Source: Methyloglobulus sp.
GTDB lineage: Bacteria > Pseudomonadota > Gammaproteobacteria > Methylococcales > Methylomonadaceae
Assembly (NCBI GenBank): GCA_013141505.1
Contig: JABFQX010000024.1
Span: 1-64,000, forward strand
Length of the DNA: 64,000 nt
Reading direction: 5' to 3'
The translations under genes were made by a program, and so were the position numbers. Below are positions 27,957-64,000 of this stretch, one piece after another. Under the pieces are notes generated by a model. It worked only from the letters and a program-made list of their open reading frames with translations. It was not told where the DNA came from and did no database searches. How positions within the stretch are numbered: the first letter of the stretch is position 1; the number at the start of each line of letters is the position of its first letter.

Positions 27957-28058
27957 CGATGCCCTTCCATTACTTCGGCTACGCTCAGCACAAGTTCGCT
28001 CAGGGCACGTTACCTCTGTGTTCCCTGAGCGAAGCCGAAGGGAAATTAATACTTCATG
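27957..28058. repeat. Palindromic repeat family R1, copy 1
   Basis: Contains TTCGGCTACGCTCAG on the left and the diagnostic right end CCCTGAGCGAAGCCGAAGGG followed by AAATTAATACTTCAT. It matches the elements at 45592-45670 and 60676-60789. It lies between two convergent genes (the zinc-ribbon membrane protein and the zf-TFIIB protein). Confidence 0.8.
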
Positions 28059-45591: not shown

Positions 45592-45670
45592 CGTCCCTTC
45601 GGCTCCGCTCAGGGAACGAAACCGTAGCATTCCCTGAGCGGAGCCGAAGGGAAATTAAAACTTCATAAGG
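45592..45670. repeat. Palindromic repeat family R1, copy 2
   Basis: CCCTTCGGCTCCGCTCAGGG on the left pairs with CCCTGAGCGGAGCCGAAGGG on the right, a perfect 20-bp inverted repeat with a short central spacer. AAATTAAAACTTCATAAGG follows, as in the other copies. It sits immediately upstream of fimT-B. Confidence 0.9.
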
Positions 45671-47655: not shown

Positions 47656-48285
47656 ATGGTAAATCTTAGCCGAAATGAACTAAAGCTCAAGCAGCAACGC
47701 GGTGTTGTGCTGCTCGTCAGTTTGATTATGTTGCTATTGCTTACCATTATCGGACTTACCGGCGTACAAACATCTGGCCTTGAAGAAAAAATGGCGGGTA
47801 ACATGCGCGACCGCAACTTAGCGTTCCAGGCAGCGGAAGCGGCTTTGCGTGATGCCGAAAAGGATATTGGCGGGAAAATAAAACTCGGATCGACACCGAC
47901 CAAACATGCCAATTGTCAATATTATGGCACCGCCAGAGGTTGTGAGTTTTCCGACCTTGGCGAGGCTGACTGCGGTGCGGCGAGCGGAAACGATGTTACC
48001 GACGATGGGGTTTGCGATTATAAGTCCGGTGTCAGCCCTGGGGATAATGAAAGCCAAATGAAAGCCGCGCCCAGTGTTAGTTACGGCACTTTCACTGGTG
48101 ATTTGCCTTCGGATATTGCCACCAACCTGTCCGCTCCGCCCCGGTATATCATTGAAAAATTTTCTTCCAAGAGCAAAGAATGTCGCTCGTCCGGAATCAG
48201 CAGTAGTTACTGTTACCGTATCACTGCACGGAGCCAGGGTGCAAATCCGAATACAGTCGTTAAGTTGCAAGAGTTTTATAAATAA
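47656..48285 (+). CDS. pilX: Type IV minor pilin PilX (operon B)
   Basis: A 209-residue protein with a 16-residue leader ending in KQQRG and VVLLVSLIMLLLLTIIGLTG, then EEKMAGNMRDRNLAFQAAEA as in the A copy. This shows what a normal PilX start looks like in this genome. It has a cysteine-containing middle region. The ATG is 1 base after the pilW stop. Confidence 0.9.
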   Translation: MVNLSRNELKLKQQRGVVLLVSLIMLLLLTIIGLTGVQTSGLEEKMAGNMRDRNLAFQAAEAALRDAEKDIGGKIKLGSTPTKHANCQYYGTARGCEFSDLGEADCGAASGNDVTDDGVCDYKSGVSPGDNESQMKAAPSVSYGTFTGDLPSDIATNLSAPPRYIIEKFSSKSKECRSSGISSSYCYRITARSQGANPNTVVKLQEFYK

Positions 48286-48326
48286 CAATGTTGCTTAAAC
48301 CACCCATTCATAAATCGAGGCTTAAC

Positions 48327-51300
48327 ATGAACGCCAAACGCATCCTGCTTATTTGCCTGTTAGGGTATTTGCCCGTCCCCGCGCTGGCGCTGGCGCCCGT
48401 TTTGGCACAGATTCCGCTTAACCAGAATCAGGGGGCTACGCCATTGGTTATGCTGACGATGGAACGTGACCATAAGCTATTTTATGAAGCCTACAATGAC
48501 CATGCCGACATCAATTTGGATGGCGGGCTTGATATCCGTTATAAGCCAGGGTTGCCGCCTACAATACCGGGCATTGATTACGCCGGTTATTTCGATTCCT
48601 ATAAATGCTATAGCTATAGCACAAATGTGTTTACGCCTGTTGAAAAGACTATTAACAAGCAATGCCCCAACAATGGTACTGCACCCTGGAGCGGGGATTA
48701 CCTCAACTATTTGACGATGACCCGGATGGATGCGCTTCGGCGCGTTCTGTATGGTGGTTCACGGAGTACGGATACCACGACATCAACCGTATTGAAGCGG
48801 TCATACGTTCCCCAGGATGCCCATAGCTGGGGTAAGGAATATACCAGCACTGCGGTTGACGGTTTTGATATTTCTTTGTACACACCATTTACCCAACCGG
48901 CAGCAGGTAAGCGCCATCTCCTGGCAAATACTACATTACTCTGTCCATCGGGAAATACTGATACAACAGCATGTGCCTTTACAGACCCTGATCCCAGTGT
49001 TAGTACGATCGAGCCGCCACTGTTGCGAGTGCTCGAAAATTCGGACAGGAGGATTTGGGAATGGGTATCCATTGAACGCCCCGTAGCTGGCATACAATGC
49101 GTAACAGGAAAAGACAGTTCAGGAAAAGAAATTCGGAGTAACTGCGTCGGAACAATGACCAATTACATGGTTCGGGTGCAGGCTTGCGTTACCAATTTAT
49201 TGGAAAGCGAATGCCAAGGTTATCCTACCAATAATCCGACCTATTATAAGCCTGTCGGCCTGTTGCAGCAGTATGGCGAGGTCGGTCGAATGGCATTTGG
49301 CTTGATGACAGGTTCCTATGCAAAAAATACTTCGGGTGGGGTGTTGAGGAAAAATATTTCTTCGGTAGCGGATGAGATAGATCCTGCTACCGGCATATTG
49401 ACCAGTACTGTCGGCGTTATCAAGTCTATCGATAGAATGAGGATTATCGGTTTTGGAAGTTCATACGCCTATGACCAAAGCTGTAGTGTGCCTGAGGTGG
49501 GAATTCAGTTGTCCGACAATCGTTGTCGGATGTGGGGCAATCCACTGGCGGAAATTATGTATGAAGGGCTGCGTTATTTTGCTGGTAAAGCAACGCCGAC
49601 AACGGCCTATTCAGGCACGGATGCGGATGCCACTACCCTAGGTTTGCCTACGCCGGCATGGAAAGACCCTTATAAAGCAACAGCCAGCGGTGGTGGGGGC
49701 TATCCTGTGTGTTCCAAGCCGTCGCAATTGGTAATTAGTGATATCACACCCAATTTCGATACCGACCAATTGCCGGGGCAATATTTATACACAGCTCCCA
49801 AAACGCTAACTGATTTTTCGACAGACATGCCCAGCGGCCTTAATGTCAAGACCTTGGCAGATACCATTTGGGCGAGTGAATATGGAGCTGATAAAACCCT
49901 GTTTATCGGTCAGTCCGGTAGCGATTTTGATGGTACCCCGAAGGCAAAAACGGTCACCAGTTTTGGTTCCATGCGCGGACTAGCACCGGAAGAGCCGACC
50001 CAGCAAGGCGGTTATTATGAAGCCAGCGTTGCTATGTATGGCAAGCAGAATGATTTGAATATTGCCGGGGATGGTTTGATCTGCGCCGCCGGAGACCCCA
50101 TTTGTACTGAAAAAAACCAGAAAACAGAAACCTTTAGCGTGGCATTAAGCTCACCGTTGCCGCGTATCGAATTTCCCTTGAAAATTAGCGGCACTGGAGT
50201 CAATAAAACTTTCGACCATTTTATTAAGCTGATACCGTTTGGGAAAACGGTCGGTGGTTGTACGGGTAGTAGTGATTCAAATGCAAGTACTAAAACTATA
50301 AATGTCGCCAAAGGCAATTATCAGCCTACCAACACCATTGTCGATTTTTATGTCGATACCATGGTGAACACTAACGCGAGCAATGTGGTTACCGACACGG
50401 CCAGCCCGGATTATCATGGCGGTCTTCCTTACGCCAAGTTCAGGATCAATTACGAAGACTCCGAATATGGCTCAGACCACGATATGGATGCAATTGCCGA
50501 ATATGAAATGACGGTGACGGCAACAGACACTCTAACAATCAGGACTGCTTCAATTTACGCAGCCGGGGGCTGTATTCAGCACATGGGTTTTGCCGTAAAC
50601 GGCACAACCGCAGATGGAACTTACCTGACGATCAGGGATTCTGATACGGCATTAAATTCTGATGTGGACTATTATCTCGATACACCGCAAATTCCGGGAG
50701 GGTTACCAACCGATACTACGCGGACATTTACCTATGGCGCGACCTCCACGGCGGAATTTGTTGCTCATGATCCGTTATGGTATGCCGCCAAGTGGGGTGG
50801 CTATATAGACAGCAACAAAAACAACCAGCTTGATACGACTGAGTGGGATAACCGTGATGGCATTCAGGACGGTGTACCGGACAATTATTTTCTAGTGACA
50901 AATGCCGGTAAACTTAAGGAGCAACTGGAACGGGCTTTTTTGGAAATTCTGGGTAGGCAGGGCTCATCATCTTCAGCTGCTACCAATTCCACCAGTTTAC
51001 AAACCCAAAGCCGGGTTTTCCAGGCGAAATACAATGGCCTGGATTGGAGTGGGCAATTGCTGTCTTATAAAATTGCTTACAATACCAGTAAAAACCGATA
51101 TGAAATCGTCACGCCAGAGGAATGGGATACTGGCTTAAAGATCAAAAATCAGGATTCCAACACAGGTAGGGTGATTATCACTAAAGGTGCTACGGATGGT
51201 GTTGGCTTTAGCTACGCCAATCTTACCGGCCTTTCGGCTACCGTGGGTAGTCAGAAGAATTTGCTGGATACTAACGCTGCCGGCACTATCAACGACGGTT

Positions 51301-53162
51301 GTGGTCCGGAACGGGTTGCTTATTTGCGTGGTGATGCCAGCCATGAGGCGATTACAGGTACTTTTAAATGCGCGTCTAATATCACTACGGCAAATTTTCG
51401 TAAACGTTCGACAAAGTTAGGCGACCTTGTCGACTCCAACCCTCTCTATGTATCGCCTCCCCGAGCGGGTTATTTGGAAAGTGAAGCGCCAGGATACAAG
51501 GCATTTAGGATTGCCAATAAAAATCGTAAACCCGTGGTTTATGTCGGGGGCAATGATGGTATGTTGCATGGGATTGATGCTTCCATCACCGGGGCTAGCG
51601 TAACTGATGCGGGTACACCTACCGCCGATGCGGGCAAGGAGGTATTGGCTTACATCCCGTCTCAAGTCCACGCGAATTTAAGCAAATTAACCGGGCAAAC
51701 TTACAATTTAAACCACCGTTATTTCGTTGATGCTTCCCCGATGATGGCTGATGTTGATTTGGGCGCGTCTGCCTGGCGTTCAGTCTTGATAGGCGCTATG
51801 GCAGCAGGGGGCAAGGGTTATTTTGCCCTGAATATCACCAATCCTGATACCGGTTTTACAGAAAGCAATGCCAGCAATATTCTGCTTTGGGAGTTTGGTG
51901 ATGATGTTGATGCCGATATGGGCTATGCCTTCAACAAGGCTCCCATTGATTCGGCGACAGGACAAGCTAAACAGATTGTAAAAATGGCAAATGGCAAATG
52001 GGCAGCTATTCTTGGCAATGGTTACAACAGTGCCGCTGGCAAAGCGGTGCTGTATATTGTCTACATCAAAGATGGCGTATTGAGTGCCAGCGACTTCGTT
52101 AAAATAGAGGCCGATGCACCTTCCGCCAAAGACAATGGTTTGTCTACCCCGGTGCCTTTTGATACTGATGGTGATGGCACGGTTGATACTGTCTATGCTG
52201 GCGACCTGAAAGGTAACTTATGGAAGTTCGACGTAAACGGCAACGATTCTACGAAATGGGCTGTTACTAATTCAAATAAACCGTTGTTCACCGCGAAAAG
52301 TAGTTCGGGCGCAATTCAGCCCATTATCTCGCCGCCGGAAATTACCTTACACCCGGTATCGGGGCAATTAATCTTTTTTGGTACCGGCAAATATATCGAG
52401 AATGCGGACCAAACCAACACCGATACCCAAACTTTTTACAGTATATGGGATGATGCTAGTTTGAAGGCAGACCCTCGGAGTAGGGCTGATTTGCTTCAGC
52501 AGACATTGTCGACGGCCACCTGTAGCTCGCCGCCCACTGCTGGTACGGCATGTACCTTGAAACCGGCAAACGCAGGTGCCCGACGTATTCCAAGTGGCAA
52601 CGCGATAAAGTGGTGCACATCAAGCGGCAGTAATGGTAACAATTGCCAATCGGGCAGTTATTTAGGTTGGTATATCGATTTGCCTGCTTCGGGTGAACGT
52701 GTCGTCGGGATACCCCAGGTTATAAACAAAATTATCGCCTTCAATACCGTCGTCCCGCCTTCCACGCTGTGTGACCCAGGTACTGGTTTTTTTATGGCAC
52801 TGAACTATCAGAGTGGTGGCTTGATAACTGCTTTTCCGGTATTTGACAGCGATGGCTCAGGGGCAATTGACAGCTCTGATGTCAGTACAGGAGGGATAGA
52901 GGTAGGTTTCGGCCTGGGAGGATCCATTGTTATTGGCAGCAGTGACAAAGGCTTGGCGGGCGGTAAAGGCATAGTGATCACGTCAACTAATGGCGGATTT
53001 GGTGGCGGATCTGGATCTGGATCTGGATCTGACGGTTCTGGTTCTGTCGGTACGACTGGCACTGGAGATAGCGGTGGTTCGGGTTCAGGCGGATATGCCC
53101 CGCCCCCTATGAATACTGGTGATATTGAAAAAGGCCGCCAAACTTGGCGCGAAATGCAGTAG
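48327..53162 (+). CDS. pilY1: Large PilY1-type pilus tip protein (PilY1-B)
   Basis: A 1611-residue secreted protein from ATG 48327, preceded by GAGG; signal peptide MNAKRILLICLLGYLPVPAL. Unlike PilY1-A it has no VWA MIDAS motif; its N-terminus is TPLVMLTMERDHKLFYEAYN, typical of another PilY1 class. The C-terminal propeller is shared with PilY1-A (PVVYVGGNDGMLHGIDASIT, FDTDGDGTVDTVYAGDLKGN, FGTGKYIENADQTNTDTQTF). A Gly/Ser-rich segment (GGGSGSGSGSDGSGSVG) precedes the conserved C-terminal RQTWREMQ. It is co-transcribed with the second minor-pilin set. Confidence 0.93.
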   Translation: MNAKRILLICLLGYLPVPALALAPVLAQIPLNQNQGATPLVMLTMERDHKLFYEAYNDHADINLDGGLDIRYKPGLPPTIPGIDYAGYFDSYKCYSYSTNVFTPVEKTINKQCPNNGTAPWSGDYLNYLTMTRMDALRRVLYGGSRSTDTTTSTVLKRSYVPQDAHSWGKEYTSTAVDGFDISLYTPFTQPAAGKRHLLANTTLLCPSGNTDTTACAFTDPDPSVSTIEPPLLRVLENSDRRIWEWVSIERPVAGIQCVTGKDSSGKEIRSNCVGTMTNYMVRVQACVTNLLESECQGYPTNNPTYYKPVGLLQQYGEVGRMAFGLMTGSYAKNTSGGVLRKNISSVADEIDPATGILTSTVGVIKSIDRMRIIGFGSSYAYDQSCSVPEVGIQLSDNRCRMWGNPLAEIMYEGLRYFAGKATPTTAYSGTDADATTLGLPTPAWKDPYKATASGGGGYPVCSKPSQLVISDITPNFDTDQLPGQYLYTAPKTLTDFSTDMPSGLNVKTLADTIWASEYGADKTLFIGQSGSDFDGTPKAKTVTSFGSMRGLAPEEPTQQGGYYEASVAMYGKQNDLNIAGDGLICAAGDPICTEKNQKTETFSVALSSPLPRIEFPLKISGTGVNKTFDHFIKLIPFGKTVGGCTGSSDSNASTKTINVAKGNYQPTNTIVDFYVDTMVNTNASNVVTDTASPDYHGGLPYAKFRINYEDSEYGSDHDMDAIAEYEMTVTATDTLTIRTASIYAAGGCIQHMGFAVNGTTADGTYLTIRDSDTALNSDVDYYLDTPQIPGGLPTDTTRTFTYGATSTAEFVAHDPLWYAAKWGGYIDSNKNNQLDTTEWDNRDGIQDGVPDNYFLVTNAGKLKEQLERAFLEILGRQGSSSSAATNSTSLQTQSRVFQAKYNGLDWSGQLLSYKIAYNTSKNRYEIVTPEEWDTGLKIKNQDSNTGRVIITKGATDGVGFSYANLTGLSATVGSQKNLLDTNAAGTINDGCGPERVAYLRGDASHEAITGTFKCASNITTANFRKRSTKLGDLVDSNPLYVSPPRAGYLESEAPGYKAFRIANKNRKPVVYVGGNDGMLHGIDASITGASVTDAGTPTADAGKEVLAYIPSQVHANLSKLTGQTYNLNHRYFVDASPMMADVDLGASAWRSVLIGAMAAGGKGYFALNITNPDTGFTESNASNILLWEFGDDVDADMGYAFNKAPIDSATGQAKQIVKMANGKWAAILGNGYNSAAGKAVLYIVYIKDGVLSASDFVKIEADAPSAKDNGLSTPVPFDTDGDGTVDTVYAGDLKGNLWKFDVNGNDSTKWAVTNSNKPLFTAKSSSGAIQPIISPPEITLHPVSGQLIFFGTGKYIENADQTNTDTQTFYSIWDDASLKADPRSRADLLQQTLSTATCSSPPTAGTACTLKPANAGARRIPSGNAIKWCTSSGSNGNNCQSGSYLGWYIDLPASGERVVGIPQVINKIIAFNTVVPPSTLCDPGTGFFMALNYQSGGLITAFPVFDSDGSGAIDSSDVSTGGIEVGFGLGGSIVIGSSDKGLAGGKGIVITSTNGGFGGGSGSGSGSDGSGSVGTTGTGDSGGSGSGGYAPPPMNTGDIEKGRQTWREMQ
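53007..53030 (+). repeat. Tandem hexamer repeat in pilY1-B
   Basis: Four perfect GGATCT units encode a Gly-Ser repeat in the tail of PilY1-B. Unit gain or loss keeps the frame and would alter linker length. Confidence 0.85.
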
Positions 53163-53344
53163 AACGGTTATCAGGGTTGATATTGGACTATTTAATTGAA
53201 TATAGCCAATAATCGCCCTGATCCCAACATGATTGGAAGCGATTAGTTGAAGGCTATAAACTTCTCAAAGCTGGGCGATAATCAGTATAATTAAAAAGAA
53301 GACACGTTAGATTTGTCACGTTTATTATCGGTAGGGAGTTGGGT

Positions 53345-53782
53345 ATGTTTAAAAACAAAGGTTTTACGTTAATTGAGCTGATGATAGCGGTGGCTATTAT
53401 TGGCATTCTGGCGGCTATTGCAGTGCCAAGTTATCAGGAGAGCGTCCGCAAATCGCGCAGGGCTGATGTCAAAGGCGCTTTGCTAGGTCTTGCCAATGCG
53501 ATGGAGCGGCGTTTTACCGAGACCAACAGTTATTTGGGGGCTGCTGGAACCGATGCAACCCCCACTGATACTGGAACGCCACGACCATCTATATTCAAAG
53601 GTGCCACTGATTATTACAACCTAACAATCAACCCAGCTACCCAATCCAGCTACACACTGACAGCTACCCCTATTTCCGGAAAATCCCAAGCTACTGATAA
53701 ATGCGGGAACTTCACCCTGAATGAACAAGGAGTCAAGGCTTATACCGGAACCACATACGGAACAAAAGACCAATGCTGGTAA
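53345..53782 (+). CDS. pilE: Type IV pilin-like protein PilE
   Basis: A 145-residue prepilin with a short leader MFKNKG then [20 protein letters not shown], and a C-terminal cysteine pair ([16 protein letters not shown] to the final DQCW). This fits PilE minor pilins that accompany PilY1. ATG 53345 has AGGGA upstream; the frame opens at a TTG two codons earlier. It lies 182 bp after pilY1-B and may have its own promoter. Only one pilE is present for the two operons. Confidence 0.9.
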
Positions 53783-53871: not shown

Positions 53872-56286
53872 CTACCGACCAATCAATTCCTTGGGGTCAA
53901 AATCATCCACTGTAATCGCCGCCAGTCTTGCTTGATCGGACTTGGTCAATAGCTCACTTTCCTCTTTACTGATAATGTTTTTTGCCAGCGCCGCACTGAC
54001 CACAGTTGATAACTCACCTTTCGCCAATAGCTTTTGTTTCTGTGCTAACTTAATCTTGGCTTCAACCGGAGCCGCCGCCAGCACCGCTTTAAACGCAACT
54101 TCAATCCTACCTGTGGCATCGTCTGGCATATGATTGATGTAGATTCCCTTTGTCAAGCGATCACGAATGGGCGAATCCGCCAGCAACAGTGCAGCGGTTT
54201 GATGCACAAGTGCATCACTGGCAGGTTTGTTGGGTTTCCCTAGCGGAAAGATCAAAGCCTTTAGCATAAAGGCAACAGGAGCAAATGGTAGCTTGGTCAG
54301 GATATCCGCTAAGGCTTGTTGTGCACGATAAAGGCTTTCCTGACATGCCCAATGTAGCAGCGGCAAGTCTTCCTTTTTACTGCCTTGATTTTGGTAATGT
54401 TTTAACACACAGGAACACAGGTAAAGGTTAGATAAGGCATCGGCAAAGCGACCGGATAATCTTTCTTTACGTTTTAACGCGCCACCCAAGGTTAATAAGG
54501 CGTAATCGGCAAGGAAGGCGAAACCAACACTAAGCCGCGCAACCTGGCGATAATAACGCTTGGTTTGTTTATCCCCTGGAGTCGCCAGAAAACGGGCGTT
54601 GGTTAATCCCAGCCATAAACATGCCACTTTGTTATGCCCCCAGTGACCAATATGTTTGAAGAAAACCTGGTCGAATGCCGTCAAGTTACCCTCGGCTATC
54701 GCTGCCATTTCTTGTTGGATGTAAGGATGGCAACGGACTGCCCCCTGACCGAAGATCATCATGGTGCGGGTGAGGATGTTTGCGCCTTCGACGGTAATGC
54801 TGACGGGAATTACCTGATAAACCCGTCCAAGGTAATTTTTCGGCCCCAAACAAATCCCAGCACCACCGAGTATATCCATACCGTCATTAACCACACGCCG
54901 CATCCGTTCGGTGAGTTCGTATTTGAGAATTGCAGAAATTACAGCGGGTTTTTCGCCTTGGTCTAAAGCGGCATTTGTGACTTGTCTTGCCGCATCGAGG
55001 ATATAAGTTTCCCCTGCCACTCGCGCCAGTGCTTCTTCAATGCCCTCAAATTCCCCGATTGGCATGTTGAATTGCTTGCGGATACGGGAATAAGCCCCCG
55101 TGTTGCGGCAGCTGAACTTTGCCGCACCCACGCTGAGTGCGGGTAGCGAGATGGCACGTCCGGTCGTCAAGCATTGCATGAGCATTTTCCAGCCATTGCC
55201 GACTTGGGCCACGCCACCGATAATCATGTCCATGGGGATAAATACGTCTTTACCCCAATTGGGGCCGTTCTGGAATGCGGAGTCTAATGGAAAGTGCCGC
55301 CGCCCAATGCTTATACCAGGGGTATTGGTGGGTATAAGTGCAACTGTGATACCGATATTGTCTTTGTCGCCTATCAAGTGATCAGGATCGTAAAGTTTGA
55401 AGGCGAGACCCAATACGGTAGCGATTGGCCCCAAGGTGATATAGCGTTTTTCCCAATTTAGGCGAATGCCTAAGACTTTGTCTTGATCTTTGAATTTGCC
55501 ATAGCAGACCACGCCCGTATCCGGCATAGCACCCGCATCACTGCCAGCATGTGGGCCGGTCAATGCGAAGGCAGGAATATCCTCGCCATTGGCCAAACGC
55601 GGTAGATAATAGTTTTTTTGTTCTTCCGTGCCGTAATTCAGCAACAGTTTCCCAGGGCCCAGTGAATTAGGCACCATCACTGTGACCGCCGCCGTGCTGC
55701 TGCGGCTGGATATTTTCATGACAATTTCAGAATGTGCCGATTCTGAAAACTCAAGGCCGCCATATTTTTTGGGGATCATCATGCCGCAAAACTTTTGCTT
55801 TTTGATGTAATCCCAAACCTCTGGCGGTAAATCCATGCGGTTATGGGTAATGTCCCAATCGTTAAGCATTCCGCATAATGTTTCTGTTGGGCCGTCAATA
55901 AAAGCCTGTTCTTCCTTCGTGAATTTTGCGACGGGTAGATTTTGTAAGATGTCCCAGTTAGGGCTACCTGAAAACAATTCTGCATCCCACCAAGTATTGC
56001 CCGCTTCCAAGGCTTCCCGCTCGGTTTGCGACATGGCGGGGAGTGCCGCCTTCATGAATTTGAAAACCCAGCGACTAATAAGCCATTGCCGTAAGGGGAT
56101 TACATTTAAAGGGATGAAAACGATTAAATACGTCATCCACAAGCTGAGATTGCTCGACGATGAAGCGCCATTCACCAGTAAGTAAACCGCCAGCAATGCG
56201 GCGATGGCGAGAGTAGCCCAGTGTATTGAGGCTTTGTAATAAGCCAATATACCGGCGAGGATGATGAGTGCGAGTAGCCAGAGCAT
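53872..56286 (-). CDS. fadE: Acyl-CoA dehydrogenase FadE type
   Basis: A membrane-associated acyl-CoA dehydrogenase performing the first beta-oxidation step. The 804-residue protein is close to E. coli FadE in length. It starts with two hydrophobic helices (MLWLLALIILAGILAYYKAS, ATLAIAALLAVYLLVNGASS), then the FAD domain (FALTGPHAGSDAGAMPDTGV) and a C-terminal extra domain. AAGGAG precedes the ATG. It is the last gene of the lipid cluster, downstream of thiolase and FadB-like genes on the same strand. Confidence 0.93.
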   Translation of the reverse strand: MLWLLALIILAGILAYYKASIHWATLAIAALLAVYLLVNGASSSSNLSLWMTYLIVFIPLNVIPLRQWLISRWVFKFMKAALPAMSQTEREALEAGNTWWDAELFSGSPNWDILQNLPVAKFTKEEQAFIDGPTETLCGMLNDWDITHNRMDLPPEVWDYIKKQKFCGMMIPKKYGGLEFSESAHSEIVMKISSRSSTAAVTVMVPNSLGPGKLLLNYGTEEQKNYYLPRLANGEDIPAFALTGPHAGSDAGAMPDTGVVCYGKFKDQDKVLGIRLNWEKRYITLGPIATVLGLAFKLYDPDHLIGDKDNIGITVALIPTNTPGISIGRRHFPLDSAFQNGPNWGKDVFIPMDMIIGGVAQVGNGWKMLMQCLTTGRAISLPALSVGAAKFSCRNTGAYSRIRKQFNMPIGEFEGIEEALARVAGETYILDAARQVTNAALDQGEKPAVISAILKYELTERMRRVVNDGMDILGGAGICLGPKNYLGRVYQVIPVSITVEGANILTRTMMIFGQGAVRCHPYIQQEMAAIAEGNLTAFDQVFFKHIGHWGHNKVACLWLGLTNARFLATPGDKQTKRYYRQVARLSVGFAFLADYALLTLGGALKRKERLSGRFADALSNLYLCSCVLKHYQNQGSKKEDLPLLHWACQESLYRAQQALADILTKLPFAPVAFMLKALIFPLGKPNKPASDALVHQTAALLLADSPIRDRLTKGIYINHMPDDATGRIEVAFKAVLAAAPVEAKIKLAQKQKLLAKGELSTVVSAALAKNIISKEESELLTKSDQARLAAITVDDFDPKELIGR

Positions 56287-56663
56287 GGTGGTTCTCCTTT
56301 TTATTTTGTCGCTAACGCGACTGTTTATTTAATCGGGTTTTCGCACCCGAAGGCGAAATACTTTCTTTTGCGTCGCCAAAAGAAAGTATTCAAAGAAAAG
56401 GCGACCCTCTGCCGCTTTTTCACTGCGTTCCTCTGTTTTGACGGGTTTGCTGGAAGGGATATCCGTATCCCTCCGGCAAATTACGGCATCCATGCCGCAA
56501 CCCTAGGGCAATTCCCGCCAAAATCTCCGGTACTCAGCGCGACAGAAGGGATGGGATGGTTATCCATATTCTGAGTTAGCCGCAAAGCTGATTAACCTAG
56601 AAAATTAAATACATATTCCAAAGGCTTTCCAGGCTTCATTACTAACAAATAAAATGGTCTGTA
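56287..56663. repeat. Intergenic repeat region with perfect hairpin
   Basis: TACTTTCTTTTG (56359-56370) and CAAAAGAAAGTA (56377-56388) form a perfect 12-bp stem with loop CGTCGC, followed by TTCAAAGAAAAGG. GGGATATCCGTATCCCTCC and CGGCATCCATGCCG add further palindromes at about 56457-56496. A 68-codon frame spans these repeats but is not a credible gene. The region looks like an accumulation of small mobile repeats. Confidence 0.6.
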
Positions 56664-57071
56664 TCATTTCGGAGTTTGCTCATTAACTTTGTGTATTTTC
56701 CCCTTGGGTAAAAATAACCATAATGCTATGCCCGAAAAGATACCCATCAAAATCACTATTACAAACAAAATATTGTGGGCAACAAAACCGCGTGAAATGA
56801 TAATGCCAATAAGAAATCCTAATAGTATCAGCGATACAAAATTTACCTTATTAATTTTGTGTAGCACCATAAAAATGAGCAACGTCAACGGTAAATAAGT
56901 TAGGTAAAATAAATAAATTAATGGGATCTTTCTTAAAGTTGAATAAAAGCAACTAACTATTTGTAGATCTTCATGTCGGGATATGCTCATATAAATTAAG
57001 CCAACAAACCAAATTATTGCCCCACCTAATGGTGCAAAAGTAAATGAAAGAAAATAACGGAATGATTTCAT
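56664..57071 (-). CDS. Small membrane protein of unknown function
   Basis: A 135-residue protein with about four membrane helices (FAPLGGAIIWFVGLIYM, IYLFYLTYLPLTLLIFMV, VSLILLGFLIGIIISRGF, ILFVIVILMGIFSGIALWLF). I recognise no family. It is markedly more AT-rich than its neighbours and is flanked by repeats on both sides, so it may be a later insertion into the fadA-fadB-fadE cluster. Confidence 0.6.
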   Translation of the reverse strand: MKSFRYFLSFTFAPLGGAIIWFVGLIYMSISRHEDLQIVSCFYSTLRKIPLIYLFYLTYLPLTLLIFMVLHKINKVNFVSLILLGFLIGIIISRGFVAHNILFVIVILMGIFSGIALWLFLPKGKIHKVNEQTPK

Positions 57072-57125
57072 CTGCTAAGAGTTATAAGGTTATTTATGAA
57101 CCATCTTCCTGGGTTAGCACGGTAG

Positions 57126-57150
57126 GTTGGGGTGAGGAACGAACCCCAAC
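57126..57150. repeat. Small palindrome after the FadB-like gene
   Basis: GTTGGGGT (57126-57133) and ACCCCAAC (57143-57150) form a perfect 8-bp inverted repeat. There is no following T-run on either strand. It probably is a REP-like repeat. Confidence 0.5.
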
Positions 57151-57159
57151 ATGACACTA

Positions 57160-59475
57160 TTAATTCCTCAGCGGCTTACCTGTCTTCAACATATGATCCA
57201 ACCTTGCCAATGTACCTGGCTGTTTAACCAGAGCAAGAAAGGCTTCCAATTCCAGCGCCAAGATGTTGTCTTCTGTCAGCGGCGCAGTGAAATCACAATC
57301 ACCACCACTTAAAACATGGGCAAGTTGACCAGAAACGATCACATCATAGTCTGTGGCTTTACCTATCAGATGGAAGGCTTTGATACCCATGTCCAGCAAT
57401 ACTTTGGCAGTAAGACCCGGCATGGGATAGAGATAAGGTTTAGGCGGGGCGTAGTCTTTAGATATAGCCAATGCTTTAGTTTTGGCATCAGCCAAGAGTC
57501 GGTCTTTATTCATGGTGATGCTATCGTTAGCGCCTAGATAAAGCAGTTCTTTGGCGTCAAAAGCCGATTTCGACACGCTTGCCAAACCAATTGTTTGAAA
57601 GGCTTTGACTACCGGCGGTATCGGGCCACCGGGGCGTTTTAATTGCAAACAACGGCGCAAATATTCCTTACAACCGCCCCAGCCAGGAATCAAGCCAACA
57701 CCCACTTCCACTAAACCCATGTAAAGTTCGGCATGGGCTTGAACGGCATCACAATGCAGCAGGATTTCGCAGCCGCCGCCCAACGCGAGGCCAGAAGGTG
57801 CTGCAACCACAGGGAAGGGCGCATATTTCAGTCGTTGATAAGTTTGTTGACCTGTTTTTATAAGTAATTCCACAGTCGACCAATCGCTTTCATGGATAGC
57901 TTTCATCAACAGGCCTAGGTTAGCGCCAGCGGAGAAATTTTCCGCATCGTTATGGATGACCAAGGCTTTGAATTCCTTACTTACCTTGTCGATGCTTTGG
58001 TTAATCATCGCCATGGAATTCATGTCCAGCGTATTCATTTTGCTATGGAATTCAAGGCATGCCACGCCGTCACCGATGTCCCATAGGCTAGCAGAACCAT
58101 TTTTAAGCAATGGTTTAGTTTGCTGTTTAATGTCGGATAGCAGCAGGATACCTTCCGCCCGTTGCACAGGATGATAATTTCCAATAAGGTCGGCAAACGC
58201 TAATCGACCTGCATCTGTTGTATATAGGCTGGAATTTTTAGCTAACAGCGGTGGGGCAATCCGATTTTCAGATATCAGCTTATCGACAAACCAGGGCGCA
58301 CTGATCTGGTCAAGCAACTCAAACGGGCCAAACTTCCAGTTGTAACCGTCCCGCATAGCGGCATCTATGCCGGTGATGTCGTCGGAAATTTCAGGAACTA
58401 AATTTGCCGCGTAACATAAGGTGTGGGAAAGCACCCGCCAGGCATATTGGGCGACGGGGTCGGGATGCGATAACAACGCTTGAAGACCCGTTTTTTGGGC
58501 ATTTTTGATCGCTGATAAATCCGCTTTATCGCTTTTGGCGTAATCACCAGTAACCAGATTTATCGACTCTTTGATGCGAGCGCCGTCTACCTTATTCAAG
58601 CGGTAAAAACCACCTTTGCCTTTCCTGCCAGTGTAACCTTCATTAATCATTTTCTGCACAATATCGGGCAAGTGATTCACTTCATGGAAAGCATCTTGTG
58701 GAGGTAACGCGAGTTTCATCCCTTTCAAAATCGGAGGGATTAAATCCAGCCCGACCAAATCCAGCAAACCGAATATGCCGGTTTTGGGGATTCCAAACGG
58801 TGCAGACATGACAGCATCGGCTTGTTCAACGGTTATGCCATTTTTTATGGCATCTAATAAGCCGTATAACAGCCAATAGATACCGATGCGGTTACCGATA
58901 AAGCCAGGAGTGTCCTTACAAATAACGCAGTTTTTGCCTAGTTTAATATCAGCAAACTGGCTGACCGCTTTAACAAACGTGGGATCTGTTGCTGGGCTTG
59001 AGACCAGCTCCAACAAACGCATGTAGCGGGGCGGGTTAAAAAAATGGGTAATCATAAAGCGCCGCTTAAAACTATCGGGCATATCCTTGACCAATAACCC
59101 TAAGGGCAGGGTAGAGGTGTTTGAGGAAATCAGGCAATCTTGCTTACAAACCGCGTCCAATTTTTGGTAAAGCGACTGTTTTACTTGTGGATTTTCGATG
59201 ACGGCTTCAATGACCCAATCGGCATCGGCCAACCAGTTTAAGTGGTCTTCAATATTGCCTGTCGTAACCAATCGGGCATTGTTTTTATGCATGAACGCTG
59301 CCGGTTCGCTCTCCAACAGCTTTTTGACGGCAGTTTCGGCGATGACGTTACGGTTGGAAGCATCATTGGGTACGATGTCAAGTAAATAAACCGGAATGCC
59401 TGCATTCGTAATATGGGCGGCAATACTTGCGCCCATCACACCCGCGCCGATAACCCCCACTTTTTGGATGTTCAT
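57160..59475 (-). CDS. 3-hydroxyacyl-CoA dehydrogenase / enoyl-CoA hydratase
   Basis: A bifunctional beta-oxidation enzyme of 771 residues. The 3-hydroxyacyl-CoA dehydrogenase half is N-terminal (NAD loop VGVIGAGVMGASIAAHI; GNRIGIYWLLYGLL) and the enoyl-CoA hydratase half C-terminal (APSGLALGGGCEILLHCDAV, MGLVEVGVGLIPGWGG), the order of FadN/FadJ-like proteins and opposite to E. coli FadB. Start ATG 59475 overlaps the thiolase stop by one base (TAATG), so the two are translationally coupled. Confidence 0.93.
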   Translation of the reverse strand: MNIQKVGVIGAGVMGASIAAHITNAGIPVYLLDIVPNDASNRNVIAETAVKKLLESEPAAFMHKNNARLVTTGNIEDHLNWLADADWVIEAVIENPQVKQSLYQKLDAVCKQDCLISSNTSTLPLGLLVKDMPDSFKRRFMITHFFNPPRYMRLLELVSSPATDPTFVKAVSQFADIKLGKNCVICKDTPGFIGNRIGIYWLLYGLLDAIKNGITVEQADAVMSAPFGIPKTGIFGLLDLVGLDLIPPILKGMKLALPPQDAFHEVNHLPDIVQKMINEGYTGRKGKGGFYRLNKVDGARIKESINLVTGDYAKSDKADLSAIKNAQKTGLQALLSHPDPVAQYAWRVLSHTLCYAANLVPEISDDITGIDAAMRDGYNWKFGPFELLDQISAPWFVDKLISENRIAPPLLAKNSSLYTTDAGRLAFADLIGNYHPVQRAEGILLLSDIKQQTKPLLKNGSASLWDIGDGVACLEFHSKMNTLDMNSMAMINQSIDKVSKEFKALVIHNDAENFSAGANLGLLMKAIHESDWSTVELLIKTGQQTYQRLKYAPFPVVAAPSGLALGGGCEILLHCDAVQAHAELYMGLVEVGVGLIPGWGGCKEYLRRCLQLKRPGGPIPPVVKAFQTIGLASVSKSAFDAKELLYLGANDSITMNKDRLLADAKTKALAISKDYAPPKPYLYPMPGLTAKVLLDMGIKAFHLIGKATDYDVIVSGQLAHVLSGGDCDFTAPLTEDNILALELEAFLALVKQPGTLARLDHMLKTGKPLRN

Positions 59476-60611
59476 TAGATTGCCTCCAGGATAGTGGCTA
59501 TTCCCTGACCTCCGCCGATACATTGTGTCGCTAACGCATAACGTTTGTTTTCCCGCTGCAACAGGCTGGCAGCTTTTCCGGTAATCCTTGCGCCGGTTGC
59601 ACCCAACGGGTGGCCTAGGGCAATTGCGCCGCCATCGAGGTTGAGTTTGCTTAAAGGAATCGGCAATTCTTTCAGGACGGCTAAGGATTGTGCGGAAAAA
59701 GCCTCATTTAATTCAACAATATCAATATCAGCCAACGTTAGTCCGGCACGGGACAAGGCCTTGTTTGTTGCTGCCACTGGGCCTATGCCCATGATTTCCG
59801 GCGCACAACCGGATACCGCAAAAGACTTGATGCGTGCCATTTTGGGCAGCTTATGGGTATCGGCATAATCTTCACTACAGACCAACACAGCGGCTGCGCC
59901 ATCCGTTAAGGGCGAAGATGTCCCTGCGGTGACTGTGCCAGTGGCTTGGAACGCGGGATTAAGTCCGGCTAACCCTTCGGGAGTGGAGTCAGGTCGTAAG
60001 CAACCATCCTTATCAATCAAGCCAGATTTAGTGGGGATGGGGATGATTTCGTCGTCAAAACGTCCCCGTTGCTGGGCAGCATAGGCTTTCTTTTGGCTAT
60101 CCAGTGCGAAGGCTTCCTGTTCCGTACGATCGATTTGATACTTAAGTGCGAGATTTTCCGCCGTATCACCCATGCTGATGTAAGCTTGCGGAAATGTCTC
60201 ATATAACGCAGGGTTGGGCATATTGTTGTAGCCGCCCATCGGAATCCTACTCATGGATTCCAAGCCAGCACAAATAAAAACCTCGCCTGCATTCATCTGG
60301 ATCGCGCCTGCCGCAATGTGTATGGCTTGCATGGACGAGCCACAGAAGCGGTTTAAGGTCATCCCTGCTATGGTATTCGGTAGGCCAGCCAGAAAGACGA
60401 TCAATCGCGCGACATTAAGCCCTTGCTCGCCTTCTGGAAAAGCGCAACCCAGGATAAGGTCTTCGATGTCTTCGGGATTGACACCGGTTCTAGCGACCAA
60501 GCCTTTAATGACCTGGGCAGCCAAGTCGTCTGGCCTTACTTTTGCCAAAAGTCCTTTTTGAGCCGGAGTGAATGGGGAACGGCAATATCCGGCAATAACA
60601 ACATTTTTCAT
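59475..60611 (-). CDS. fadA: Acetyl-CoA acyltransferase (thiolase)
   Basis: A thiolase that cleaves 3-ketoacyl-CoA. From ATG 60611 (MKNVVIAGYCRSPFTPAQKG) it is 378 residues, with the nucleophilic Cys in RFCGSSMQAIH, the segment GHPLGATGAR and the C-terminal CIGGGQGIA with the second Cys. Motifs are complete. It lies upstream of the bifunctional gene in one operon, separated from the acyltransferase-hydrolase gene by 207 bp that hold R1 copy 3. The symbol follows the usual name; substrate length preference cannot be read from sequence. Confidence 0.93.
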   Translation of the reverse strand: MKNVVIAGYCRSPFTPAQKGLLAKVRPDDLAAQVIKGLVARTGVNPEDIEDLILGCAFPEGEQGLNVARLIVFLAGLPNTIAGMTLNRFCGSSMQAIHIAAGAIQMNAGEVFICAGLESMSRIPMGGYNNMPNPALYETFPQAYISMGDTAENLALKYQIDRTEQEAFALDSQKKAYAAQQRGRFDDEIIPIPTKSGLIDKDGCLRPDSTPEGLAGLNPAFQATGTVTAGTSSPLTDGAAAVLVCSEDYADTHKLPKMARIKSFAVSGCAPEIMGIGPVAATNKALSRAGLTLADIDIVELNEAFSAQSLAVLKELPIPLSKLNLDGGAIALGHPLGATGARITGKAASLLQRENKRYALATQCIGGGQGIATILEAI

Positions 60612-60675
60612 TATTTTTCTCCTGTTACACCCAACCATTTATAGATACAGCTTTTTAATGTTTAAAATAGCTGTA

Positions 60676-60789
60676 GTACCCTTCGGCTCCGCTCAGGTAG
60701 CGCCCCAGTACCTTTCGGCTCCGCGCTTAGGGGACACCCCGGCAAGGTTCCCTGAGCGAAGTCGAAGGGAAATTGAAATTGCATAAGGC
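60676..60789. repeat. Palindromic repeat family R1, copy 3
   Basis: Left part ACCCTTCGGCTCCGCTCAGG and a second partial CCTTTCGGCTCCGCGC, then the right end CCCTGAGCGAAGTCGAAGGG and AAATTGAAATTGCATAAGG. It matches copies 1 and 2, with an extra internal half-unit. It lies inside the lipid operon, between the acyltransferase-hydrolase gene and the thiolase gene. Confidence 0.85.
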
Positions 60790-60818
60790 GGATTAATAGT
60801 ATCGACACTGAGACCAGA

Positions 60819-63137
60819 TTACTTAATATTCGTTTCTTTGCGAGTGTTATTAGTTTCTTCGATACAGCTATTCATAAACTCATCAATACTTTCCCACGTA
60901 CCACCTATGTTTTCCATCAGGATACCATGCCGTTTTGAAGGCACAATTTTTAGTAGCTTATTGGCAGCAGTCAGTTTATTCGTGACTTCCTGGGCACTTT
61001 TAACAGAAACAACAGGATCCTCATTGCCTTGCAACACCAGTGTTGGCACCTTACACAAAGGCACAAACTCATTCATGCTTTCAATCAAAAGCCTCAACTC
61101 ATACAGGCTCTTGACCGGTACATGTCGGTAATTAATGTCAGGATGCTCTGTGGGGTTTTCAATAAAAGGCTTTATGCCTTCGTATGACGACAACCAGTCT
61201 ACCAACTTATTGGTGCCATGTAGTAAAGGCACCAGCATGAAAGCGGGATTGATGAATTTTATCGGCACGGACACGGCGCTAATGCCGATGATCTCAGGGA
61301 ATTGTTCAGATGCCAACTTAAGCGCCAAAGCGCCACCGGTAGAAAAGCCGGTTACAAAAATTTGCTGACAATGTGCTTTTAAGATTTTGTAGCCGCGCAA
61401 TACCGAGCCATACCAATCTTGCCAGGTCTGGTTTTGCAGTGCGTAAGGTGATGAACCATGACCTTTCAGCCGAACCCCCATCACGGTATAACCCTGTTTA
61501 ACCAGATGGTCGCCATAATCCCTGAGTTCTGCGGGGCTGGCGAGCAAGCCGTGGATTAAGAGAACACCGATGCCATTATCATCATGCGGATCGAGGAAAA
61601 AAGGCATTGAATCAGCGGAAGCCGTTTCATCATCATTGATATCATCATAGATAGCCTTGTCATAAGCATGATGTTCCCAGGTCAAATCGCGGCATTCATC
61701 TTCAAAGTGCCAGGCGGCAAGCTCCTGTTGATCGACATGGTCGTATTCTGCCAAGGCTTTAACCAAGGTTTCGCGGACAACCTTAATGGGTTTGGCTTCG
61801 TTATCATAGACCGCAATAATATTTTCCAGACGGATACTGTCAAACGCTTGGTCTTCCAATAATTTAGGCAATAAGTGATAACGGGTTTTGTACTCAGTTA
61901 TCAGGCCGGTATTTTTGGCTTCCAGAATGAAGGTCTCAAAACGAGTGCTTGTGCCATTGACGACTTCACTGTAATCAACTGGATTGAACAAACTTCTGTG
62001 CAGGTTGATTGTTGTGTTGTTTTGTAAGTGCTTAACGGCGATGTAAATTACCGTGAAAAACGCTTGTCGTTCGATTTGCAACTGACCTTTCTTGATCAGG
62101 TGCATGATCAAAGTTGAAGCCAAATGGCTCAGGTTAATGGTGACATTGAGGTAAATTTCCTCCATGTACTGGTCACGAGTGGCATTTGCCGCTTTTTTAA
62201 AATAGTGACCTAGGCATCTTTGTTGCCAGGTTTTAGGTTTGGCTTGCAGGGTGAAAACATCATCGACTGATTTAACGTCAGCCATTACTTTTTGCAGCAG
62301 ATAATGGCTACCGAAAAAACGGCGATCAAAAGGCTCAATCGGCTTGCCCATACGGATGTCCATGTCAGTGTTTTTTAACATGATGTTGCCTTCAATCAAC
62401 AATTCTTCGGTTTGCCGAAGACTTAGGCTATCAGTAAAAAAATCGACCGCTTTTATCAGCAAGTTTTCGGATGTGCGGAGTGGATAAAAGGTGATGTTGG
62501 CAGGTATGATAAACGTATGTTTGAGCGCCGAGGCCAGTAATTGATCCAAGCTGTCCATATGCAGTTGTTCTTTCCACCACACCAATTGATCATGGTCTTT
62601 TTCGAGGTAGGCGCGGCGGATGATGATTTTTATGGCTTCAACACCTTGCGCCAGCACGGCTGCCCCGGTATGCTGCTTGCGGCGCAGCCCAGTCATGCGC
62701 GAATAAATGCCGTAGTTGCCTTCATCATCAACAACCCGATGGTCTTTAATCATGCTACCTTCGGGGAAAATGATCACCTTGCGGCCGCGCAGGATTTGCG
62801 CGGTCAGCAAAGAAAATAGCCGGTCATGGTCGTGCGGAAAAACGCCGACATGCTGTAGGTATCTTGACAGCACATTATCTTGTTGAAAAAACTCGCCCGA
62901 TGCGATGGCACAACAATAAGCGCCGGTTTGTTCGTAAATTAAAAATTGCGGGATGAAGGTTTCAAAGCGGGAAAAATGGTTAAACAGGAAAATATCGCCC
63001 TGTTGTATTTGGGTGTCAGCGTGAAGTTTCATTTTCACGCTGAGCACTTTTTTGACAGTATCAAATACCCGTACAGACCGGTTATACAGCGTTTTGTCGA
63101 TGTCGCTCCAGTTTTCGGGATAAGGTGATTTTGGCAT
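60819..63137 (-). CDS. Acyltransferase - alpha/beta hydrolase fusion protein
   Basis: A 772-residue soluble protein joining two lipid-active domains. The N-terminal PlsC-like region has NHFSRFE (53-59; HX4E form) and FPEGS (124-128). A helical middle of about 200 residues resembles the C-terminal part of glycerol-3-phosphate acyltransferases. The C-terminal hydrolase is of the monoglyceride lipase/carboxylesterase type, with LLIHGLLASP (His529), nucleophile GFSTGG (Ser599), Asp707 in QGNEDPVV and His737 in KRHGIL. It starts 11 bp after mlaA. The substrate is inferred to be a phospholipid, lysophospholipid or acyl ester; the order of activities is unknown. Confidence 0.85.
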   Translation of the reverse strand: MPKSPYPENWSDIDKTLYNRSVRVFDTVKKVLSVKMKLHADTQIQQGDIFLFNHFSRFETFIPQFLIYEQTGAYCCAIASGEFFQQDNVLSRYLQHVGVFPHDHDRLFSLLTAQILRGRKVIIFPEGSMIKDHRVVDDEGNYGIYSRMTGLRRKQHTGAAVLAQGVEAIKIIIRRAYLEKDHDQLVWWKEQLHMDSLDQLLASALKHTFIIPANITFYPLRTSENLLIKAVDFFTDSLSLRQTEELLIEGNIMLKNTDMDIRMGKPIEPFDRRFFGSHYLLQKVMADVKSVDDVFTLQAKPKTWQQRCLGHYFKKAANATRDQYMEEIYLNVTINLSHLASTLIMHLIKKGQLQIERQAFFTVIYIAVKHLQNNTTINLHRSLFNPVDYSEVVNGTSTRFETFILEAKNTGLITEYKTRYHLLPKLLEDQAFDSIRLENIIAVYDNEAKPIKVVRETLVKALAEYDHVDQQELAAWHFEDECRDLTWEHHAYDKAIYDDINDDETASADSMPFFLDPHDDNGIGVLLIHGLLASPAELRDYGDHLVKQGYTVMGVRLKGHGSSPYALQNQTWQDWYGSVLRGYKILKAHCQQIFVTGFSTGGALALKLASEQFPEIIGISAVSVPIKFINPAFMLVPLLHGTNKLVDWLSSYEGIKPFIENPTEHPDINYRHVPVKSLYELRLLIESMNEFVPLCKVPTLVLQGNEDPVVSVKSAQEVTNKLTAANKLLKIVPSKRHGILMENIGGTWESIDEFMNSCIEETNNTRKETNIK

Positions 63138-63148
63138 GGTTATCTGCG

Positions 63149-64000
63149 CTATTTAGGCTCGTTTTCTTCGTCTGGTGGGGACAAATCCAAAAAGTGTTTG
63201 GAATTGTTGATAACTGGGGCAGGGGGCGGAGGCTCTTTAGGCATCGTGGTTGAATTGTTTATGATGGTAACGGCATTGGGGTCGTGGACGATGGATGCGC
63301 CTGCACTTGAACCGGCACCAGCACCCGTACTAGACAGGTTGCTCTTGGATTCGCTATTGCCAGTATCACCGTTTGCGCCGTCATCAAGCATCATGTCATC
63401 GGTTTCTTCAGGCGGATTACCGTCATGGATCAAATATTCACGGCGTTGCAAATAAGCGTTTTTAGTAAAATCATAGCGGTCTACCGCTGCTTCATTAAGG
63501 ATTTTCTCGGATGACATCAGGTCAGAGCGGGTATCGGTAATATCTACTGCAGAAGCGGCTGCGGTACCGGCATTAGCAGCAAAGCCACCAAAAAAAGACA
63601 CATAGGTCAATGGATTGAACAAGGCATCGCCAATTAGGCCAACGGTATCTCTAGGTGAAGTTGAGCCAAGGAACGGCAAGACCATGTAGGAGCCGGATGG
63701 AATGCCCCAAAAGCCCAAGGTTTGACCAAAATCTTCGTCATGTTTGGGCAAGTCAATCATTTTTGCGACATCAAAAATGCCTGCGACTCCGGCGGTGGTA
63801 TTCACCAGAAAACGGCTGACATCCATACCGCCTTGGGTAAATTTTAGCTGCAAGAAATCATTGATAAAAACACCTATGTCATTAATATTGCTGAAAACAT
63901 TGGTTATGCTTTCATCGACGGGATTTGGGGTGATGTCCTGATAACCTTTTGCCACCGGTTTTAAAACGGCTTCATCGACATCGTGATTAAAGGAATGCAC
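63149..64000 (-). CDS. mlaA: Phospholipid-transporting lipoprotein MlaA (5' end outside window)
   Basis: MlaA sits in the outer membrane and removes phospholipids from its outer leaflet. The 283 residues visible lack the N-terminal signal peptide, which lies beyond base 64000. The MlaA signature is clear: AVLKPVAKGYQDITPNPVDE, DVSRFLVNTTAGVAGIFDVA, EDFGQTLGFWGIPSGSYMVL, PFLGSTSPRDTVG. After the domain there is an unusual tail of about 90 residues, rich in Asp, Ser, Gly and then Pro (KEPPPPAPVINNSK). It is followed directly by the acyltransferase-hydrolase gene. Confidence 0.93.
   Translation of the reverse strand: MHSFNHDVDEAVLKPVAKGYQDITPNPVDESITNVFSNINDIGVFINDFLQLKFTQGGMDVSRFLVNTTAGVAGIFDVAKMIDLPKHDEDFGQTLGFWGIPSGSYMVLPFLGSTSPRDTVGLIGDALFNPLTYVSFFGGFAANAGTAAASAVDITDTRSDLMSSEKILNEAAVDRYDFTKNAYLQRREYLIHDGNPPEETDDMMLDDGANGDTGNSESKSNLSSTGAGAGSSAGASIVHDPNAVTIINNSTTMPKEPPPPAPVINNSKHFLDLSPPDEENEPK

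Follow-up and report, generated by a model that had tools for sequence, protein, structure and literature searches.

An acyltransferase-hydrolase fusion between mlaA and beta-oxidation genes in a Methyloglobulus-like methanotroph: a candidate module for glycerolipid turnover

Many methanotrophs build extensive internal membranes, and the recycling of membrane lipids is therefore a real question in these bacteria. A 64-kb stretch of DNA (here called the window) from a Methyloglobulus-like methanotroph with a genome of 3.87 Mb (100% complete) carries mlaA, a gene for an acyltransferase-hydrolase fusion, and genes for a thiolase, a FadN-type 3-hydroxyacyl-CoA dehydrogenase/enoyl-CoA hydratase (HADH/ECH) and FadE. 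An earlier note on this DNA had taken the five genes to suggest a phospholipid salvage or turnover route.

Gene content and transcription units of the locus

Gene and domain analysis placed all five genes on the minus strand in the order that had been claimed (Table 1). The mlaA gene is truncated by the window end, and the full gene of 333 aa matched PF04333 with 251.5 bits (228.5 bits for the window part; cut-off 25). Its product would remove outer-leaflet phospholipid together with MlaC and MlaFEDB. Directly upstream, just past the window end, lies glpK. The thiolase gene likely starts at ATG 60611 in place of 60638 and the HADH/ECH gene at ATG 59475 in place of 59523, and the two genes therefore overlap by 1 nt (TAATG).

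Table 1. Features of the locus and the evidence for their assignment.
Feature	Position	Strand	Evidence
mlaA, outer-membrane lipoprotein	63149..64000, on to 64150 in contig coordinates	-	PF04333; lipobox LQGC
Fusion, 772 aa	60819..63137	-	Pfam, predicted models, fold matches, active-site motifs
Fusion halves: PlsB/GPAT-like acyltransferase (~1-480), monoacylglycerol-lipase-like hydrolase (~484-763)	60819..63137	-	
REP-like palindrome, gap between fusion and fadA	60680..60768	.	inverted 18-mers
fadA, 3-ketoacyl-CoA thiolase	59475..60611	-	TIGR01930, 439 bits (cut-off 240)
fadN-type HADH/ECH	57160..59475	-	domain order; NF052272, 500 bits
135-aa hydrophobic ORF	56664..57071	-	no family match
fadE, long bacterial-type acyl-CoA dehydrogenase, hydrophobic N-terminus	53872..56286	-	PF09317, 347 bits; NF007000
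glpK, glycerol kinase (beyond window)	64344-65828	-	TIGR01311, 716.7 bits (cut-off 590)

In the HADH/ECH protein the HADH domain (residues 21-308) precedes the ECH domain (484-623), which makes it a FadN/Staph_FadB-like alpha subunit and not one of the E. coli FadB type; its best model, NF052272 (Staph_FadB), is an exception-type model named for staphylococci, and its cut-off of 999 bits was not reached. FadE scored 1126.7 bits against NF007000 (cut-off 600) and matched the ACDH_C domain (PF09317), and its 1091 bits against NF038187, a narrow exception model for E. coli, stayed below the cut-off of 1300. An HADH-first alpha subunit encoded with a thiolase and an acyl-CoA dehydrogenase is also found in the fadN-fadA-fadE and fadXDEBA operons of Firmicutes; compared with these, the present locus has the fusion added, lacks the ligase and encodes a long FadE. 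The 135-aa ORF ahead of fadE, on which the earlier note was silent, had no counterpart in the fetched relatives by tblastn and is probably outside the module.

The mlaA and fusion genes are separated by 11 nt and overlap in some relatives, while 207 nt containing the palindrome (60680-60697 and 60751-60768; 0 expected by chance) lie between the fusion gene and fadA, and 377 nt precede fadE. A second, similar inverted pair occurs at 45596-45650. Promoter and terminator scans of the window gave counts close to the shuffled mean and no decisive site. By their spacing, mlaA-fusion and thiolase-HADH/ECH are two tight pairs, and a single transcript for all five genes is putative. The two longer gaps, as well as Methylobacter loci that lack mlaA, would fit two transcription units that have nothing to do with each other and lie together by chance, but the fusion gene bridges both, lying next to mlaA and being syntenic with the fad genes over the family, and we consider mere proximity very unlikely.

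Conservation of the fusion with the fad genes and with mlaA

The order fusion-thiolase-HADH/ECH is kept in the Methyloglobulus and Methylobacter group loci with enough contig, except L012, and FadE comes next wherever the sequence reaches, except in L018. Of 23 family genomes, 10 carry the fusion, FadN and FadE together and the remaining 13 lack all three. In a wider set of 81 genomes from the order, 44 of the 47 with FadN or FadE encode the fusion, as compared to 3 of the 34 without. Synteny and joint presence and absence across the family thus bear out the proposed fusion-fad link, and these comparisons strongly support a predicted conserved functional unit of the fusion with fadA, fadN and fadE.

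The link to mlaA fared differently. The fusion-fad order is conserved, but mlaA accompanies it in one clade only (Methyloglobulus-like, single origin) and is absent from the Methylobacter loci; its meaning therefore rests on few independent events. In L089, mlaA stays with the fusion gene and the fad genes are located elsewhere. Other neighbours in some relatives belong to glycerophospholipid turnover: glpD lies near the fusion/fad locus in L010, L011, L013 and L025, a GDPD gene directly upstream in L017 and L021, and lplT and aas are neighbours in L027. Outside the order, most fusion homologues had no lipid-turnover neighbours recognised by the queries used.

The fusion protein and its possible substrates

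The predicted model of the fusion (pLDDT 82) comprises two distinct folds. Residues 1-453 best matched human GPAT1 (PDB 8e4y; Z 16.0, rmsd 4.5, 326 aligned, ~9% identity), a match that takes in a C-terminal helical part, followed by PlsC (Z 11.5). The Pfam acyltransferase domain fell just under its cut-off (20.3 vs 23 bits), was matched at E <=0.01 by 30 of 36 sequences, and a profile of this half found no relative of solved structure by sequence. The N-terminal half thus resembles the PlsB/GPAT1 family by predicted fold; in contrast to the HX4D motif of that family, all aligned relatives carry HX4E (NHFxRxE). In the present fusion this motif is H54/E59, and an FPEG motif is also present. Winged-helix matches to residues 334-457 were weak (Z ~5 to 7) and do not point to DNA binding. 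The hydrolase half (residues 484-763) has a monoacylglycerol lipase fold (Z 31.6, rmsd 2.2, 246 aligned) with the catalytic triad S599/D707/H737, as in the bacterial enzymes of Bacillus H257 and Geobacillus 12AMOR (PDB 3rm3, 5xks; Z ~31, Ser-Asp-His triad). It differs from these in being joined to an acyltransferase half, and monoacylglycerol hydrolysis is a predicted activity only. Plasmid records contained no full-length fusion and, among the matches listed, the hydrolase half only. A literature search, mainly of open-access papers, found no publication on the fusion.

In two relatives with an adjacent fadD (L104 and L105), the hydrolase active-site residues appear lost and the acyltransferase motif, invariant across all relatives examined, is kept; hydrolysis is therefore not always the conserved job. 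This, the GPAT-like fold and the restriction of the mlaA link to one clade would suit a fusion acting chiefly as an acyltransferase for salvage or quality control that returns acyl groups to the membrane, with beta-oxidation trimming surplus or unusual chains and mlaA nearby incidentally. However, 13 of the 23 family genomes lack the fusion along with FadN and FadE, which ties it to degradation, and a GPAT needs acyl-CoA, hence a ligase, which is missing; we regard this explanation as rather doubtful. The resemblance to monoacylglycerol lipase, and a glpK that handles free glycerol, could instead suggest that the module draws on stored neutral lipid (mono- or triacylglycerol) or on imported acylglycerol, and not on membrane phospholipid. 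As no FadL for uptake was found, and the neighbours MlaA, GDPD, LplT and Aas concern phospholipids, this appears unlikely. A WS/DGAT search gave no match, but its positive controls gave none either.

Acyl activation and the proposed turnover route

No acyl-CoA ligase is encoded in the window, as the earlier note had stated, nor near the locus, and the fadD that it suggested looking for beyond position 64000 was not found, glpK following instead. No FadD-type ligase was found at FadD-like identity in the own genome or in the other 22 family genomes; the AMP-binding matches were Aas, a protein resembling acetyl-CoA synthetase, and NRPS-like modules within very long frames. The route would thus lack a recognised enzyme for activating free fatty acids to acyl-CoA. 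In other families, by contrast, the fusion is accompanied by a FadD-type ligase, e.g., fusion-fadD-fadA-fadN-ACAD in L108 with genes overlapping or nearly touching. FadL and PldA were not found in the window's own genome, and ETF (PF01012) had no match in the 23 family genomes, while 10 of 14 control genomes matched. Together with the missing FadD, these gaps weigh against the turnover route proposed below.

The locus is comparable by description to the fadABE cluster of the Type I methanotroph Methylomicrobium (Methylotuvimicrobium) buryatense 5G(B1), deletion of which raised fatty acids by 10% and for which the absent fadD was called puzzling and no fadL was reported in 2017; the passages on that cluster are silent on the fusion, on mlaA and on ETF (PMC5222806). 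In E. coli mlaA* mutants, PldA-FadD lipid signalling links misplaced outer-membrane phospholipid to acyl-CoA formation, requiring PldA and FadD, neither of which was found here, and not fadA or fadB (PMC5874903). Aas (2-acylglycerophosphoethanolamine acyltransferase/acyl-ACP synthetase) is likewise an acyltransferase fusion of phospholipid repair, but its partner domain is an AMP ligase and not a hydrolase.

We propose, with a probability of roughly one in two, that the locus is a module with which gammaproteobacterial methanotrophs turn over their own glycerolipids. The hydrolase half would release acyl chains from glycerolipids that carry a single acyl group (monoacylglycerol or lysophospholipid) and the acyltransferase half would return acyl groups to a glycerol backbone, so that the fusion would stand where acyl chains are either re-used or burned. 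The fold matches and conserved active-site residues speak for this proposal. Acyl-CoA would be degraded to acetyl-CoA via FadE, FadN and FadA, and the backbone converted to DHAP through GlpK and GlpD. For activation, the best stand-in may be an Aas-like acyl-ACP synthetase/acyltransferase (C88), encoded elsewhere in the genome, or another unrecognised enzyme. That the acyltransferase half itself runs towards CoA, forming acyl-CoA from (lyso)phospholipid or acyl-glycerol phosphate without FadD or ATP, we consider highly improbable. In the Methyloglobulus-like clade, the extra MlaA may bring mislocalised outer-membrane phospholipid into the turnover route. MlaA acts at the outer membrane and no signal peptide is evident in the fusion; the two would therefore be joined only via steps not seen, and a C-terminal motif common to the linked MlaA proteins is unlikely to be a docking site for the fusion, MlaA being periplasm-facing. 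Phospholipid salvage or turnover is plausible from the neighbours in relatives and the lipase-like half, and MlaA may feed the pathway.

Fatty acids of membrane lipids are burned in stationary phase in Sinorhizobium meliloti and E. coli, and according to a 2020 paper little is known of the step of acyl-chain release or re-use (PMC7232532), for which the locus names a candidate enzyme. The missing-fadD puzzle of M. buryatense is sharpened, as none was found in the sampled family genomes and other families keep fadD at the fusion, and the ETF-free FadE of the family genomes bears on how FadE hands on its electrons.

Conserved core of the lipid cluster

The lipid cluster is real and its core is conserved. 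For this 3.87-Mb genome, the gene content proposed in the earlier note was correct, although some names and start positions have been slightly amended (see table). Two pairs are tightly spaced, mlaA-fusion and fadA-fadN, and are separated from each other by 207 nt containing a REP-like palindrome, while a further 377 nt lie ahead of fadE; one operon running from mlaA through fadE is possible. REP-like palindromes occur at 60680-60768, 45596-45650 and 28024-28041, giving five matches against none expected by chance. On either side of the cluster, translations revealed two PilY1/minor-pilin clusters on the plus strand (47656-53782; locus L005 7227-13725), and pilin genes are also found downstream of fadE in the relatives' loci L011 and L025.

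Genes of the lipid cluster (window G000:C61:1-64000), listed 5' to 3'
Gene	Position	Strand	Remark
glpK	64344-65828	minus	outside window
mlaA	63149-64150	minus	
acyltransferase-hydrolase fusion	60819-63137	minus	
fadA	59475-60611	minus	
fadN-type HADH/ECH gene	57160-59475	minus	
135-aa ORF	56664-57071	minus	unconserved
fadE	53872-56286	minus	

The suggested link of the fusion to the fad genes was borne out by synteny in relatives and by joint presence or absence in genomes. Fusion, fadA and fadN are successive on one strand in relatives of the Methylobacter and Methyloglobulus groups with enough contig, except at L012, and fadE comes next wherever the contig extends that far, except at L018. 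The same 10 of 23 family genomes carry the fusion, FadN and FadE, and the same 13 lack all three, hence the association also holds at the level of gene content; in three of the positive genomes (G413, G416, and G422) the fusion lies apart from the fad genes. Of 81 genomes of the order, 47 have FadN or FadE, and 44 of these also carry the fusion; among the 34 others, 3 carry it. These co-occurrence counts are uncorrected for relatedness, and sub-threshold matches or incomplete genomes could move single cells.

The fusion protein and its lipid-gene neighbours

The nearest named relatives of the fusion are from Methyloglobulus and other Methylococcaceae. Two AlphaFold2 models were obtained (pLDDT 82.5 and 81.7), and structure comparison indicated that the N-terminal half is PlsB/GPAT-like (Z 16.0 to GPAT1, 11.5 to PlsC) and that the C-terminal half resembles monoacylglycerol lipase (Z 31.6, against 26.4 for Est30 carboxylesterase). 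The acyltransferase motif (HX4E and FPEG) is found in every aligned relative, and the triad S599, D707, H737 is retained in all but L104 (GFATGG; H replaced by L) and, it appears, L105 (GTGIGG). On fold and motif, the halves are a predicted acyltransferase and a predicted lipase. In L104 and L105, where fadD adjoins the fusion, the hydrolase active-site residues seem lost with the acyltransferase motif retained.

The mlaA-fusion link is confined to one clade. All nine fusion-adjacent mlaA rows form one group in the tree (support 100/100), which fits a single origin, and the Methylobacter fusion loci contain no mlaA. Gaps between mlaA and the fusion are short across relatives, with overlaps in some, and in L012 and L089 mlaA stays beside the fusion although the fad genes are not adjacent. 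The genome carries two further mlaA genes, on contigs C2 and C34, the latter adjoining hpnM within a hopanoid gene cluster (L008 8708-10271). A C-terminal motif like NSKHLLDLSAPD is common to MlaA next to the fusion (window 63149-63230; L009, L010, L011, L012, L013, L022, L025, L089) and is absent from these other two proteins. Some Methylobacter carry glpD, GDPD or lplT-aas upstream of the fusion, often with unrelated genes intervening (aas and lplT in one genome, L027 2102-5774). Such neighbours point to glycerophospholipid turnover, weakened as independent evidence by lineage-specific synteny.

The acyl-CoA ligase

The adjacent fadD looked for past 64000 was not found, nor was a FadD-type ligase elsewhere in the genome, as judged from a search with the L108 ligase and an inventory of AMP-binding proteins. 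None of the 23 family genomes yielded a protein comparable to the L108 query (best 34% identity), FadD-like matches outside the family reaching at least 49%. The AMP-binding proteins of this genome comprise very-long-frame modules, interpreted as NRPS, together with one acetyl-CoA-synthetase-like protein and one Aas-like acyl-ACP synthetase/acyltransferase. In other families, the fusion has an AMP ligase beside it in L099 to L101, L104 to L106 and L108, and close by in L103; fadA, fadN or both come after the ligase in L100, L103, L104, L105, and L108, and in L108 the five genes overlap or almost touch. The three ligases scanned (L103, L104, and L108) reached 756 to 845 bits against their best-matching long-chain fatty acid-CoA ligase models, short of the strict equivalog cut-offs. 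The simplest reading is that the ligase was lost from an older operon. For M. buryatense, PMC5222806 describes the same absence of fadD as puzzling.

Proposed phospholipid salvage, and FadE

FadL and PldA were not found in this genome, nor was ETF in it or the other 22 family genomes, while control genomes gave matches for each. A fadABE cluster in methanotrophs is already known, as is the absence of fadD from one such organism; the papers that we searched gave no description of the fusion, of its co-occurrence with FadN and FadE, or of the family-wide absence of fadD and ETF. The phospholipid salvage proposed earlier is reasonable and now supported beyond gene names, but MlaA would take part in one clade only and every biochemical step is one that we infer.

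In the order, 23 of 24 FadE-positive genomes are without ETF; of the 23 genomes that have FadN and lack FadE, 18 possess it, the remaining five being 58 to 87% complete. FadE and ETF are almost mutually exclusive, which given shared family history is a lead and no proof. This distribution agrees with FadE not requiring ETF, an unsettled point for E. coli FadE (PMC9329746, PMC11495604), and bears on the electron acceptor of FadE.
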